From Candidatus Alcyoniella australis (lineage in GTDB: Bacteria; Lernaellota; Lernaellaia; JAVCCG01; Alcyoniellaceae), in assembly GCA_030765605.1 (NCBI GenBank), contig JAVCCG010000107.1, positions 1 to 64,000 on the forward strand: DNA of 64,000 bases, read 5' to 3'. Position 1 is the stretch's first letter. Each line of letters starts with the position of its first letter. The notes under the pieces are model-generated. The model saw only the letters and a program-made list of their open reading frames with translations, did no database searches and was not told the origin of the DNA. A program made the position numbers and the translations under genes. Positions 99 through 5,536 of the stretch are shown one piece after another.

Positions 99-446
99 AT
101 GCCTAAAAGCGAAGCCAACTGCATCTTCTGCAAGGTCCGGTCGGGCGAGATCCCGTCGGAAAAAATCTACGAGGACGAACTGGTCTTCGTGATCAGGGAC
201 GTTAAACCGCTGGCACCGGTACACCTGCTGGTGATTCCCAACGAACACATTCAGACCCTACTCGACGTTCCGGACGAGCGGATCGACCTGCTGTCGCACA
301 TGCTCGACGTAGCGCGCAAAATGGCGATCCGTGAGGGGATCTCGAAAAAGGGATTCCGCATCCTGATCAATACCAACTCCTGGGGCGGTCAGGTGGTGTT
401 CCACCTGCACTTGCACGTCATCGGCGGCAAGCCGCTCAAAGGCTGA
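99..446 (+). CDS. HIT (histidine triad, HINT-type) nucleotide-binding protein
   Basis: A 115-residue cytosolic HIT-family protein. It starts with a CIFCKV segment typical of HINT proteins and ends with the histidine triad FHLHLHVIGG (His102, His104, His106), which forms the nucleotide phosphoramidase active site in this family. I chose the ATG at 99 because the protein then begins just before the conserved Cys-x-x-Cys segment and GAGG lies about 9 nt upstream. An in-frame GTG at 57 would add 14 residues unlike the family. The next gene starts one base after the stop, so the two are probably cotranscribed. The physiological substrate of bacterial HINT proteins is usually unknown. Confidence 0.93.
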   Translation: MPKSEANCIFCKVRSGEIPSEKIYEDELVFVIRDVKPLAPVHLLVIPNEHIQTLLDVPDERIDLLSHMLDVARKMAIREGISKKGFRILINTNSWGGQVVFHLHLHVIGGKPLKG

Positions 447-1435: not shown

Positions 1436-2638
1436 ATGAAACTCTTCGAACCCAGGTTCTCCAAAACATTCTGGTGGTGCCTGACACTGCTGTGTCTGGG
1501 GTGCATCGTGGCGCATCACGCGGCGCACAATCTGTGGCAGATCATCTTGCTGCCCAGCGAAACCCGGGTGGCGCGGTTGGTCCCAGGGACGGTTAGCATT
1601 GAGCGCCTGGAGCGCGTCGGGACCTGGCGGCTGAGCGACTCGGCGGGGCAGGTCAACTACGCCATCTTAACCACGGCGGTGGAACCCGAGGTGGAAGGCT
1701 ACCGCGGGCCGATCAGCGTACTGATTGCCATCGACTCTCAGGGACGAATCAGCGCCGCAGAGCTGCTTGAACATCACGAGACCCCGTACTACATCAACCT
1801 GCTGCTCGAACAGCGCTTTATCGACCGGCTGGTGGGGCTCGACCTGAGCGCGGCTGATCCGCAAGTGGACATGGTTTCCGGGGCCACGGTCAGTTCGCAG
1901 GCGATCCTGCGCGACGTGAGCGCCTCGTCGCTCACATTATTGCACGGCCTCGGGACGCTACAGGTCGACGCGCCGCCGTTGCAGATCGATTGGTACCGCG
2001 CTGCGCTGGCGCTAAGCGCACTGCTGTTTGCAATCGCAGCCTTGGCCTTACGCTCCAGGCTCCCTTGGCTGCGCTGGGTAGTGTGGATCATCAACTTGGC
2101 GCTGGTCGGGCTGTTGTTAAAAGCGCCGCTAAGCTTTGCCGGACTGGCCGACCTGGTCGCGGGCAGGCCGCCGGGCGCGCTTAATATCGACGCGGCGCTG
2201 ATCCTCTACGCGGCGCTGCTGGGCTCGCTGCTCTTCGGACGCTTCCACTGCCGGGCGGTCTGCCCGTTTGGCGTTATGCAGCGCTTGGTTGCCGCGGCGT
2301 CTCCGGTTGCACGTCGCTCGACCGGGTCCGCGGGCGCAAGCGCCGTGTTCCTCGCGCAAATGCCGCTGCTGGTGCTCGCCGGTCTGACAATCGCCACCTT
2401 CGGCTGCGGGCTGTGGTCGATCGCGCCGTTCGAGCCATACGCGCTGCTGTTCAGCGGCTGGCGCGATCCGCTACGCCTGGCCTACGCCGGGCTGGCGTTG
2501 CTGCCGTGCCTGTTCTTCCCGCTGTTCTGGTGCCGCTTCGTCTGTCCCACGGGCGCGGGCCTCGACCTGGTATCGCGCCTGGCACGGCGTCGGATACGGC
2601 CCTGGACCGCGACAAAGGATCGCGACGATGAGCAGTAG
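1436..2638 (+). CDS. Membrane FMN-binding / 4Fe-4S electron-transfer protein (NosR/NapH-like)
   Basis: A 400-residue inner-membrane protein. After a first membrane segment (about 12-34), an extracytoplasmic FMN-binding domain carries S-G-A-T-V-S-S near residues 148-154; in RnfG/NosR relatives the Thr of this motif bears covalent FMN. Several membrane helices follow (about 190-265, 305-330, 350-372), with two C-x-x-x-C-P motifs (about Cys272/276 and Cys366/370) as in NapH/NosR Fe-S membrane domains. The separate C-terminal ferredoxin domain of full NosR is absent. The ATG at 1436 was preferred over a TTG two codons upstream. It overlaps the next small gene by 11 nt, and its position ahead of amrS suggests electron supply to that locus (inference). 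Confidence 0.8.
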   Translation: MKLFEPRFSKTFWWCLTLLCLGCIVAHHAAHNLWQIILLPSETRVARLVPGTVSIERLERVGTWRLSDSAGQVNYAILTTAVEPEVEGYRGPISVLIAIDSQGRISAAELLEHHETPYYINLLLEQRFIDRLVGLDLSAADPQVDMVSGATVSSQAILRDVSASSLTLLHGLGTLQVDAPPLQIDWYRAALALSALLFAIAALALRSRLPWLRWVVWIINLALVGLLLKAPLSFAGLADLVAGRPPGALNIDAALILYAALLGSLLFGRFHCRAVCPFGVMQRLVAAASPVARRSTGSAGASAVFLAQMPLLVLAGLTIATFGCGLWSIAPFEPYALLFSGWRDPLRLAYAGLALLPCLFFPLFWCRFVCPTGAGLDLVSRLARRRIRPWTATKDRDDEQ

Positions 2639-2843
2639 AGCGCTGCTGCTGGTCTGTTTCGCCCTGGTGCTCATGGCTGCGCTGCTGGTCGCCTGGTACA
2701 ATTTCGAGGCTGAGCAGGCGGTGATCACCGGCCACCGCAAGTTCGACGTCGATCGAGTTGAGCAGCTGATCGACGAGTCGCGGCTGTCGGGCAGAGAGGC
2801 CGCCTACTACCTTGATCAGCAGGAGATCGAAAGTGGCCGCTGA
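2628..2843 (+). CDS. Small single-helix membrane protein with an S-x-x-E-A-x-x-Y segment
   Basis: A 71-residue protein with one N-terminal transmembrane helix (about residues 4-24) and a soluble tail ending in RLSGREAAYYLDQQEIESGR. Longer AmrS-type radical SAM proteins often carry an N-terminal membrane or Tat signal followed by an E-A-x-x-Y stretch just before the first VQCLLCP motif. This ORF looks like that segment on its own, and it overlaps the start of amrS by 11 nt in a different frame. It may be a genuine split gene, the upstream half of a frameshifted gene, or an assembly indel. The 11-nt overlap with the preceding gene supports translation. Confidence 0.6.
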   Translation: MSSRALLLVCFALVLMAALLVAWYNFEAEQAVITGHRKFDVDRVEQLIDESRLSGREAAYYLDQQEIESGR

Positions 2844-3816
2844 GGCAATGGTCCAGTGCCTGCTGTGCCCCAAGAGCTGCCGGCTGCTTCCCGGCGAGCG
2901 CGGCGACTGCCGGGCGCGGGTCAACCTCGACGGCAAATTGATCAGCCTGGTCTACGGCAAGGTCTGCTCGGCCAACATCGATCCGATCGAGAAGAAGCCG
3001 CTGTTCCACTTCCTGCCGGGCAGCAGCGCCCTGAGCGTGGCCACGGCCGGATGCAACCTGCACTGCCTGAACTGCCAAAACTGGAGCATCAGCCAAGGCG
3101 ACCCCGAGGATGTGGAAAACTTCGACCTGCCGCCGGAGCAGCTGGTGCAAAGCGCGCTGTCCAACAACTGCAGCATGATCGCCTACACCTACACCGACCC
3201 GGTGATCTTCTTCGAGTACGCCCTGGACTGCTGCACCCTTGCCGCGGAACGCGGCCTGCGCAACGTGCTGGTCAGCGCCGGGTTTATCAACCGCAAGCCG
3301 CTGCAACAGCTCGCACGGGTGACGCACGGCGCGAACATCGACCTCAAGGCGTTTTCCGACGACTTCTATCGCCGGGTGACCACCGGCCGACTGCAGCCGG
3401 TGCTCGACGCACTGGTGACGCTCAAGTCCGCGGGCGTCTGGCTCGAGATTACGAACCTGGTGATCCCCACGCTCAACGATGACGAGGCGCAGGTTAGACA
3501 GATGTGCCGCTGGATCGTACGCGAGCTGGGACGCGACACGCCACTGCATTTCTCGCGTTTCTTCCCGCGCTACAAGATGCGCGACCTGCCGCGCACGCCC
3601 GCCGCGACCCTGCAGCGGCTGCGCAGTCTGGCGCAATCCGAGGGACTGGACTACGTGTACGTGGGCAACCTTGGAAATCCGCAGTTCGAAACAACCTACT
3701 GCCCAAGCTGCGGCGCGGCCGCCATAGTCCGCCGGGGGTACTCGATCGTGCAATACGATTTGCACAACTCAGCGTGCGCCGCATGCGGCCGCCGGCTCCC
3801 AGGAGTATGGGAATGA
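2833..3816 (+). CDS. amrS: AmmeMemoRadiSam system radical SAM enzyme
   Basis: A 327-residue radical SAM protein. Family features are an N-terminal VQCLLCPKSC cysteine cluster, the S-adenosylmethionine-cleaving 4Fe-4S motif CNLHCLNC (about Cys74, 78, 81), and a C-terminal zinc-ribbon-like pair (YCPSC and CAAC) ending in LPGVWE. The GTG at 2833 was chosen because AGGAG lies 7 nt upstream; the longest ORF opens at a TTG at 2812. It sits between two microproteins and just before the MEMO1-AMMECR1 fusion, the defining partner set of this system. The reaction and target of the system are not established. No signal peptide is present with this start. Confidence 0.9.
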   Translation: MAAEAMVQCLLCPKSCRLLPGERGDCRARVNLDGKLISLVYGKVCSANIDPIEKKPLFHFLPGSSALSVATAGCNLHCLNCQNWSISQGDPEDVENFDLPPEQLVQSALSNNCSMIAYTYTDPVIFFEYALDCCTLAAERGLRNVLVSAGFINRKPLQQLARVTHGANIDLKAFSDDFYRRVTTGRLQPVLDALVTLKSAGVWLEITNLVIPTLNDDEAQVRQMCRWIVRELGRDTPLHFSRFFPRYKMRDLPRTPAATLQRLRSLAQSEGLDYVYVGNLGNPQFETTYCPSCGAAAIVRRGYSIVQYDLHNSACAACGRRLPGVWE

Positions 3817-3995
3817 GCGCCGGATCGCGTAGGCGTTTTATCCGCGGGCTGCTCTTTGCCCTGGCTGCAATCGGCGTGGACCGACGTCGGGGCTCGAAGC
3901 GCAGGCCGCTTGGCGATACAATCAACGGCAGGCTGTCCAAACACGAGGCAGCCCACTACACGGTTTTGAAACGGAACAGAGGGAAACACCAATGA
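3813..3995 (+). CDS. Tat-signal microprotein with an S-x-x-E-A-x-x-Y motif
   Basis: A 60-residue ORF starting at an ATG that overlaps the amrS stop, with AGGAG at 3801-3805, and ending in an ATGA overlap with the next gene. Its N-terminus S-R-R-R-F-I-R followed by a hydrophobic stretch fits a twin-arginine export signal. The tail RLSKHEAAHY repeats the motif of the small protein on the other side of amrS. Overlaps at both ends argue for real translation and coupling. No function is known; a role as partner or substrate of AmrS is inference only. Confidence 0.6.
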   Translation: MSAGSRRRFIRGLLFALAAIGVDRRRGSKRRPLGDTINGRLSKHEAAHYTVLKRNRGKHQ

Positions 3996-5536
3996 GACCC
4001 GTCTTGATCGGCGTTGCGCTGGTCGCCGTACTGCTGCTGGTTCTTTGCAGCGGCTCGTGCAAGTCGGCCGAGGAACCGGCCGAGCAACAACCGGGGGCCG
4101 AGCAGGGCCGTCCGGTTGGTGCGAACAAAGACAGGAGCGATGTGATGGAATCGGTTGCAGCCGGACGTTTCTATCCCGGGCAGAGCCGCAAGCTGACCCA
4201 GGAAGTCGACGAGTATCTGCGCCAGGCCGACGTGGAACAGATCGAGCAGGACGTCTTCGGCCTGATCTGTCCCCACGCCGGATACGTCTACTCCGGGCCG
4301 GTGGCGGCCTACGCCTACAAGGCGGTGCGCGGCAAGGTCTACGATCGGGTGGTAATCATCGGACCGAGCCACTACGCGGCCTCCTCGGGCGTCTCGGTGC
4401 TGGACAAGACCGAATACCGCACCCCGCTGGGCTCGCTGAAGATCGACACCGAGTCCGCACGCGAGATCGTGCGCAAGGCCAGCTGGGCCGACGACGCGAT
4501 CGGCCTGTTCAGCCAGGAGCACAGCATCGAGGTTCAGTTGCCGTTCGTGCAGACGGTGATCCCCGACCCGCAGGTGGTGCTGATCGCCATGGGCTCCCAA
4601 AGCCTCGAACTCTCCACGCGGCTGGCGCAGCTGCTCGACGAGCTGTTCGCGGATAAGCGCGTGCTCTACATCGCCAGCAGCGATTTGAGCCACTACCATC
4701 CCTACGATGCGGCCCAGGCCATGGATCACCAGACGCTGGATTTCATCGAGCGCATGGACTCGGCCGGTCTATACCAGGCGACGCGTTCGCGCGATGTCGA
4801 GCTGTGCGGCCTGGGTCCGGTGCTGACGTTGATGGAGCTCTACCGCCTGCGCGGCGGCCAGGACGTGCGCGTGCTGCACTACGCCAACTCCGGCGATACC
4901 TCGGGCAGCAAGGACCGGGTGGTGGGCTACGGCGCGGTGGCGTTCGTCGGCGGCGTACAGCGTTCGGCGGGCACGGGCGAGGGCGGATCGCAGGACGAGT
5001 ACCTGACCAAGCAGGAGAAAGTCGAGCTGCTGCGCTACGCACGCCAGACCGTGGAGACCTTCGTGCGATCCGGGGATAAACCCGATTTCGAACCGCAGAG
5101 CCCCACGCTGCGGGCCGACGGCGCGGCCTTTGTCACGCTGAAAAAGCACGGGGACCTGCGCGGCTGCATCGGGCAGATCATCGCCCGCGAACCGCTGTGG
5201 CAATCGGTGCGCGACATGGCCGTGGCCGCGGCCAGCCAGGATCCGCGCTTCCCGGCGGTGCGGCCCGACGAGCTGGACGAGCTGCACATCGAGATCAGCG
5301 TGCTCACGCCGCTTATCAAGGTCGAGAACGTCGAGTCGATCGAGGTCGGACGCGACGGGCTGCTGATCCGCAAGGGAATCCGCCAGGGTCTGCTGCTGCC
5401 GCAGGTGCCCACGGAGTACGGCTGGGACCGCCGAACCTTCCTCGAGCAGACCTGCCGCAAGGCCGGGCTGGACTTCGACGACTGGCAAAGCGGAGCCGAG
5501 ATCTACAGCTTCCAGGCGATCGTCTTCTCCGAGTGA
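3992..5536 (+). CDS. Exported MEMO1-AMMECR1 fusion (AmmeMemoRadiSam proteins B and A)
   Basis: A 514-residue two-domain protein. Residues about 50-320 are a MEMO1-type domain with putative metal-site residues in PHAGYVYSGP (His95), GPSHYA (His127), the EHSIEVQLPF segment (His177), a DLSHYHPY segment and Cys272. Residues about 335-514 are an AMMECR1 domain with its signature LRGCIGQI (Cys392). The N-terminus is hydrophobic (residues 4-19) with a weak lipobox ending at Cys23, so the protein is probably exported, possibly as a lipoprotein. The start overlaps the preceding stop as ATGA. Genomes with this system may carry A and B as separate genes; here they are fused. The biochemical role is unknown. 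Confidence 0.88.
   Translation: MRPVLIGVALVAVLLLVLCSGSCKSAEEPAEQQPGAEQGRPVGANKDRSDVMESVAAGRFYPGQSRKLTQEVDEYLRQADVEQIEQDVFGLICPHAGYVYSGPVAAYAYKAVRGKVYDRVVIIGPSHYAASSGVSVLDKTEYRTPLGSLKIDTESAREIVRKASWADDAIGLFSQEHSIEVQLPFVQTVIPDPQVVLIAMGSQSLELSTRLAQLLDELFADKRVLYIASSDLSHYHPYDAAQAMDHQTLDFIERMDSAGLYQATRSRDVELCGLGPVLTLMELYRLRGGQDVRVLHYANSGDTSGSKDRVVGYGAVAFVGGVQRSAGTGEGGSQDEYLTKQEKVELLRYARQTVETFVRSGDKPDFEPQSPTLRADGAAFVTLKKHGDLRGCIGQIIAREPLWQSVRDMAVAAASQDPRFPAVRPDELDELHIEISVLTPLIKVENVESIEVGRDGLLIRKGIRQGLLLPQVPTEYGWDRRTFLEQTCRKAGLDFDDWQSGAEIYSFQAIVFSE

Follow-up and report, generated by a model that had tools for sequence, protein, structure and literature searches.

Conservation of AMMECR1 and MEMO extends from archaea to humans, and both are linked to disease; we know of no chemistry assigned to either protein. 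In the AmmeMemoRadiSam system (TIGR04335, TIGR04336 and TIGR04337) they are accompanied by a radical S-adenosylmethionine (SAM) enzyme, AmrS; Memo-Ammecr1 systems with such an enzyme are attributed to Burroughs et al. 2019 (JBC) where that work is cited in PMC7159879, and our literature search returned no biochemical activity reported for the AmmeMemoRadiSam system. Here we describe a form of this trio in a window of 64,000 nucleotides, the whole stretch of Candidatus Alcyoniella australis DNA (contig JAVCCG010000107.1) that was analysed. Five overlapping plus-strand genes at 1436-5536 encode, in this order, a flavin mononucleotide (FMN)/4Fe-4S membrane protein, a microprotein that we call SP1, AmrS, a second microprotein, SP2, and a MEMO-AMMECR1 fusion. 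All three components of the trio exceed their curated cut-offs, and the locus differs from the described system in that AmrS lacks its N-terminal segment, which is carried by the two microproteins, in the predicted export of MEMO-AMMECR1, and in the inclusion of the FMN/4Fe-4S protein in the unit. We lean towards reading the operon as a split, exported AmmeMemoRadiSam system, in which SP2 would export AmrS through the twin-arginine translocation (Tat) pathway and SP1 would dock it at its electron donor. The split AmrS, its segment on SP1 and SP2 and the predicted exported form of the trio appear to be new: the literature search found no account of a split AmrS, of SP1 or SP2, of this gene set or of an exported radical-SAM enzyme, and Burroughs et al. 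2019 may partly cover the context.

Gene calls, Pfam and NCBIfam place all five genes where the first-pass annotation had put them, and their junctions bear out its view of one translationally coupled unit: adjacent genes overlap by 11 nt at the first two (2628-2638 and 2833-2843) and by 4 nt, as ATGA, at the last two (3813-3816 and 3992-3995), and Shine-Dalgarno-like stretches can be read in the sequence ahead of SP1, AmrS, SP2 and MEMO. AmrS (2833..3816) starts with GTG, begins AEAMVQCLLCPKSC and reaches 393.6 bits against TIGR04337 (cut-off 220), with CxxxCxxC present and CNLHCLNC invariant. MEMO and AMMECR1 are fused in one gene overlapping the operon (3992..5536), with 275.3 bits to TIGR04336 (cut-off 26) and 191.5 bits to TIGR04335 (cut-off 99), and an N-terminal hydrophobic signal predicts that the product is exported. 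SP1 (2628..2843, 71 aa) consists of an N-terminal membrane helix followed by a helix and a C-terminal segment predicted to lie outside, and SP2 (3813..3995, 60 aa) of a Tat-type signal (SRRRFIRG) and the segment RLSKHEAAHY. Neither microprotein has a family match in Pfam or NCBIfam.

The two microproteins share an LSxxEAxxY motif (LSGREAAYY of SP1 at 2784..2810, LSKHEAAHY of SP2 at 3933..3959), and this motif corresponds to an N-terminal segment that most AmrS enzymes bear directly ahead of their first cysteine motif. Segment-bearing N-termini are found in cytosolic (MKEAMLYEKLEDGKVRCNLC or TRYWHKLDDGRIQCDLCPR), Tat-fused (HVKEAYFYKKLADGTVQCGTCP) and membrane-anchored (ITLEQVKDAGLSLREAMYYDKLPDGLVRC) enzymes. 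Window AmrS departs from the canonical pattern EAxxYxxL...VxCxLCP: it begins AEAMVQCLLCP and, like its nearest relatives, starts at M-x-V-x-C without the segment, which stands on SP1 and SP2 instead. The first-pass annotation had treated the microproteins as independent accessories; both in fact carry the detached N-terminal segment of AmrS itself. We examined 80 AmrS loci from public genomes (these and further loci are numbered with the prefix L), which by eye comprise 55 split loci, 24 with an intact N-terminus and one truncated locus, L091. In Chromatiaceae, Sedimenticola and other gammaproteobacteria, short open reading frames (ORFs) with the same motif stand right next to AmrS on its upstream and downstream sides, and SP2 (Tat signal ... 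LSLREADFYRPHDLAG*) stops exactly where AmrS begins. Namely, the C-terminus of gammaproteobacterial SP2 is the glycine of a hairpin turn (FYRPHDLAG*), and AmrS resumes at the next strand (M-x-V-x-C). A large spermidine-synthase-like membrane protein of Planctomycetota and Lentisphaerota, which usually also bears FMN/4Fe-4S domains, has the SP1 segment as its C-terminal tail. Natural fusions complete the series, joining a Tat signal, the segment and AmrS in L098, L107, L109, L134 and L233, and a membrane anchor, the segment and AmrS in L226 and L249.

To quantify the motif we used a matrix built solely from 113 segment-bearing AmrS N-termini. Window SP2 scores 15.0, a value reached by none of 3000 shuffles, and scores of at least 12 occur in 15 of 783 short ORFs beside split AmrS compared with 32 of 27831 other ORFs (p=1e-12). 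Additionally, a hidden Markov model of 15 gammaproteobacterial SP1s, from which the window was excluded, was run against every ORF of the fetched loci and retrieved window SP1 at E=1e-5, and the same profile matched the tails of the large membrane proteins with E from 4e-6 to 0.08. A chance origin of the shared motif was rejected on the matrix enrichment, the shuffles and the SP1 profile match. The first-pass annotation had taken a lack of purifying selection on the short ORFs as counting against its proposal; in relatives such selection is seen, the pooled ratio of nonsynonymous to synonymous polymorphism being 0.27 (SP1) and 0.63 (SP2) in a set of five close gammaproteobacterial endosymbionts and 0.33 in five Planctomycetota SP2s. 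Within SP2, the linker is variable while the READYY motif and the RR signal are constant, and the protein almost always finishes in a C-terminal [L/W]-x-G.

Structure models of two naturally fused relatives indicate where the segment belongs. In AlphaFold models of the membrane-anchored AmrS of L226 and the Tat-fused AmrS of L134, the segment is folded with high confidence (predicted local distance difference test score of 98 for residues 61-70 and 41-50, respectively) and pairs of strands are placed at 65-67 and 73-75 in the former and at 46-48 and 54-56 in the latter. Because both models place it so, the segment is predicted to be the first strand of the AmrS N-terminal hairpin, the second strand being the start of split AmrS. 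The nearest solved fold is that of pyruvate formate-lyase-activating enzyme (3cb8, E 1e-15), a likeness to the radical-SAM activases from which AmrS differs by an extra four-cysteine N-terminal domain with the hairpin and by C-terminal zinc-ribbon-like cysteines, and the window operon differs by encoding no glycyl-radical enzyme.

The detached and the attached forms of the segment exclude each other across the sampled loci. By eye, 53 of the 55 split loci have a Tat-type SP2 between AmrS and MEMO (it was not seen in L042 and L076), and the 24 loci whose AmrS N-terminus is intact all lack it, counts to which no p-value is attached since related loci are not independent. SP1 or its tail form is likewise confined to split-AmrS loci, and the spermidine-synthase-like proteins beside Tat-fused AmrS carry no tail. 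When 96 AmrS were placed in a tree with the segment left out, all 32 rows of split AmrS, window AmrS included, fell into one clade (SH-aLRT, an approximate likelihood-ratio support, of 99), which is nested in a larger clade (SH-aLRT 95) together with some cytosolic forms and every Tat-fused form but one. A single fission event is the simplest reading of these sequences. The clade reaches at least six phyla, being found in Pseudomonadota, Planctomycetota, Lentisphaerota, Bdellovibrionota, Myxococcota, a Desulfobacterota survey genome (G066) and the window's phylum. The link of AmrS and MEMO-AMMECR1 with an FMN/4Fe-4S membrane protein and two short proteins, for which the first-pass annotation had suggested a survey, is conserved in other phyla: L252 (Desulfobacterota) has the identical order FMN/Fe-S protein, SP1, AmrS, SP2, MEMO. 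The window's genome also encodes a second AmrS (G000 contig C85:33934-34896, L022) with about 287 bits to TIGR04337, an intact N-terminus (ETKRAEYYEELGNGVYRCLLCP) and no signal, which by its sequence is a cytosolic-type paralogue.

The first gene of the operon (1436..2638) encodes a 400-aa membrane protein with an FMN_bind domain (PF04205, 3e-13) and a polyferredoxin-like Fer4_5 domain (PF12801, 1.6e-11), and it has counterparts beside AmrS in other phyla. It carries the flavinylation signature DMVSGATVS at 1868..1894, with the threonine for covalent FMN at 1886-1888, and two CxxxCP motifs, predicted cytoplasmic 4Fe-4S ligands, at 2249..2545. At another place the genome encodes an ApbE flavin transferase (305 bits); the DxxSGAT signature and this enzyme together predict covalent attachment of FMN. 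These features recall NosR, NapH and RnfG, which share FMN_bind with SGAT or the Fer4_5 CxxxCP motif and whose models the protein matches, but all matches fall far below the curated cut-offs (NosR 42.7 against 1000 bits, RnfG 39.8 against 102), and in the stretches read no nos, nap or rnf genes lie beside the window gene. Hydropathy and the positive-inside rule place FMN outside, the Fe-S part inside and the SP1 segment outside.

The first-pass annotation had called this membrane protein dedicated, a view that needs revision: it is a reduced version of a larger protein, to which a spermidine-synthase-like domain also belongs in most relatives. A large membrane protein with MFS-like helices, the spermidine-synthase-like domain and usually FMN_bind and Fer4_5 lies near AmrS in 40 of the 55 split loci, and the FMN/Fe-S part stands alone in the window, as it does in L252. 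In the same 80-locus sample, 9 of the 12 Tat-fused AmrS genes adjoin a spermidine-synthase-like membrane protein that has no FMN/Fe-S part, and neither kind of membrane protein lies beside any cytosolic AmrS. The relatives' large protein matches fused major facilitator superfamily/spermidine synthase-like proteins (PRK03612, NF037959) and differs from them in its fusion to FMN_bind/Fer4_5 and the SP1 tail, in an active-site loop altered in gammaproteobacteria, and in its absence from the window operon. Next to Tat-fused AmrS, the spermidine-synthase-like domain partly retains its nucleotide-site glycine motif and DP loop, which are altered in gammaproteobacteria. The tail sits beyond the last membrane helix, on the FMN side, and in L032 and L035 it follows the FMN domain directly. 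The same topology rules place the spermidine-synthase-like domain outside, less surely; separately, L066 and L050 have an odd number of predicted helices ahead of it, so that it may face outward. Among the remaining observations on this protein family, L249:6103-9163 (Planctomycetota) holds a DsbD-like membrane domain fused to FMN_bind/Fer4_5, adjoining a membrane-anchored AmrS and a spermidine-synthase-like protein, and an ApbE-like flavin transferase gene follows the large FMN/Fe-S membrane protein in L061, L075 and L079 (right end).

The SP2 signal SRRRFIRGLLFALAAIGV resembles, by eye, S-R-R-x-F-L/I followed by a hydrophobic stretch, and TatC is encoded in the genome. By eye, an N-terminal signal or anchor is present on every MEMO-AMMECR1 encoded next to a split or Tat-fused AmrS, and MEMO has no such signal in any of 10 Bacteroidota loci with a cytosolic AmrS and an adjacent MEMO. 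Together with the FMN/4Fe-4S membrane protein and its predicted topology, the MEMO-AMMECR1 signal supports the extracytoplasmic setting with an electron path suggested by the first-pass annotation. An enzyme without its own front end and two membrane-targeted carriers of the missing piece suggest that AmrS acts outside the inner membrane.

Tat hitchhiker export is an established mechanism for other enzymes (PMC10924467): for hydrogenase and formate dehydrogenase subunits, the Tat signal of one partner exports a signal-less, cofactor-loaded partner. The arrangement proposed here would follow the same principle, and would differ in that the carrier is a 60-residue peptide predicted also to complete the enzyme's fold. 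We infer AmrS binding, export, electron transfer, SAM supply and chemistry as follows. AmrS would lack the first hairpin strand, and SP1 and SP2 would each supply it in trans. SP2 would bind folded, cluster-loaded AmrS in the cytoplasm and carry it through the Tat translocon as a hitchhiker, and at the outer face SP1, a single-pass protein with its C-terminus outside, would use the same segment to hold AmrS beside the FMN/4Fe-4S membrane protein. Electrons would pass from the cytoplasmic Fe-S side to the covalent FMN outside, and from this to the AmrS 4Fe-4S cluster; AmrS with exported MEMO-AMMECR1 would then modify an extracytoplasmic substrate. Only the spermidine-synthase-like domain offers a candidate link to SAM; the membrane protein that bears it might help to supply SAM, and in the window's genome this would necessarily be an unlinked paralogue. 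That AmrS is an extracytoplasmic radical-SAM enzyme which is exported folded as a hitchhiker on one segment-bearing peptide, docked by another, and supplied with electrons and perhaps SAM across the membrane is a picture we hold tentatively, at slightly under an even chance.

The motif, fusion and fold evidence would look the same if SP1 and SP2 supplied the strand and AmrS stayed in the cytoplasm, their helices only tethering it to the membrane; SAM and flavodoxin or ferredoxin are available there. We nevertheless consider structural complementation without export unlikely, since MEMO-AMMECR1 is predicted to be exported at these loci, the large-membrane-protein tail follows the FMN domain or a last helix ending outside, and some AmrS (L025-L027) have Tat signals and lipobox-like cysteines. 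A small ORF beside a radical-SAM gene is also the usual layout of a precursor, and SP2, with the SP1 tail, might be a peptide substrate of AmrS resembling ribosomally synthesized and post-translationally modified peptides, its Tyr/His region being modified in the cytoplasm and the product exported by Tat. The conserved C-terminal motif and the known binding of Tyr-containing peptides by mammalian MEMO fit such a role, but in other lineages the same segment is confidently folded in predicted structures as part of AmrS, none of 24 loci with segment-keeping AmrS has a small separate Tat peptide nearby, and no residue is invariant across SP2s, which makes a substrate role rather unlikely.

SP1, SP2 and MEMO-AMMECR1 are all predicted to lie outside, as would be expected if the motif were a docking peptide for MEMO or AMMECR1 and not for AmrS, bringing the exported fusion to the membrane complex. 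This seems highly unlikely: in cytosolic systems the segment is on AmrS and is predicted to fold against AmrS, and its presence tracks the architecture of AmrS, not MEMO. It is scarcely credible that the short ORFs are chance or decaying frames in an ordinary AmmeMemoRadiSam locus beside an unrelated FMN/Fe-S gene; short length, overlapping starts and the lack of a Pfam or NCBIfam family would suit that explanation, which is contradicted by homologues in at least six phyla, purifying selection, profile matches and the five-gene order of L252.

Several points weigh against the split, exported system that we favour. The Tat signals were assigned by pattern, not by a trained predictor. The SP1 motif alone is not significant (its matrix score of 7.2 was reached by 212 of 3000 shuffles), so that SP1 is argued for by the profile of its own family and by the fused forms. 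The SP2s of Planctomycetota have no EAxFY, terminate in KYPG...KWSG* and cannot bind in just the same way; those of Lentisphaerota share this ending and the lack of EAxFY. With the same segment on SP1 and SP2, two partners would compete for one site. SAM would have to be available to a radical-SAM enzyme outside the cytoplasm, and we know of no periplasmic SAM supply. Finally, AmrS loci in genomes of the same phylum (L023-L030) lack the FMN/Fe-S gene and the short ORFs, an outcome that the first-pass annotation had named as contrary to its proposal for neighbouring lineages; this is tempered because those AmrS belong to other subfamilies and the gene set recurs in distant phyla.

Should a radical-SAM enzyme indeed act outside the cytoplasm here, one general assumption about these enzymes would fall, and SAM must have a route across the membrane. 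We know of no radical-SAM enzyme that works outside the inner membrane, and the proposed export would be without precedent known to us. Through this operon the bacterial trio is linked to a particular location (the outer side of the membrane), to a specific electron donor and to a specific assembly step, each open to direct tests, and two microprotein families without a Pfam or NCBIfam model receive names and proposed roles.

Upstream of the operon, separated by a 31-nt gap, lie genes for a HIT-type protein (window 99-446) and an exported HEAT-repeat protein (448-1404), neither of which was noticed beside AmrS in other phyla. Tat signals also occur on AmrS copies elsewhere: in the same class as the window's genome, L025-L027 combine one with a lipobox-like cysteine (e.g., AFLTGC), which makes them predicted lipoproteins. 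Many Desulfobacterota have several AmrS genes per genome, and Tat-type N-termini are found on about half of the 30 sampled Desulfobacterota copies and on several Planctomycetota ones (L144-L173, L204-L232). L225 holds a tandem pair of AmrS genes, each with its own Tat-type N-terminus.

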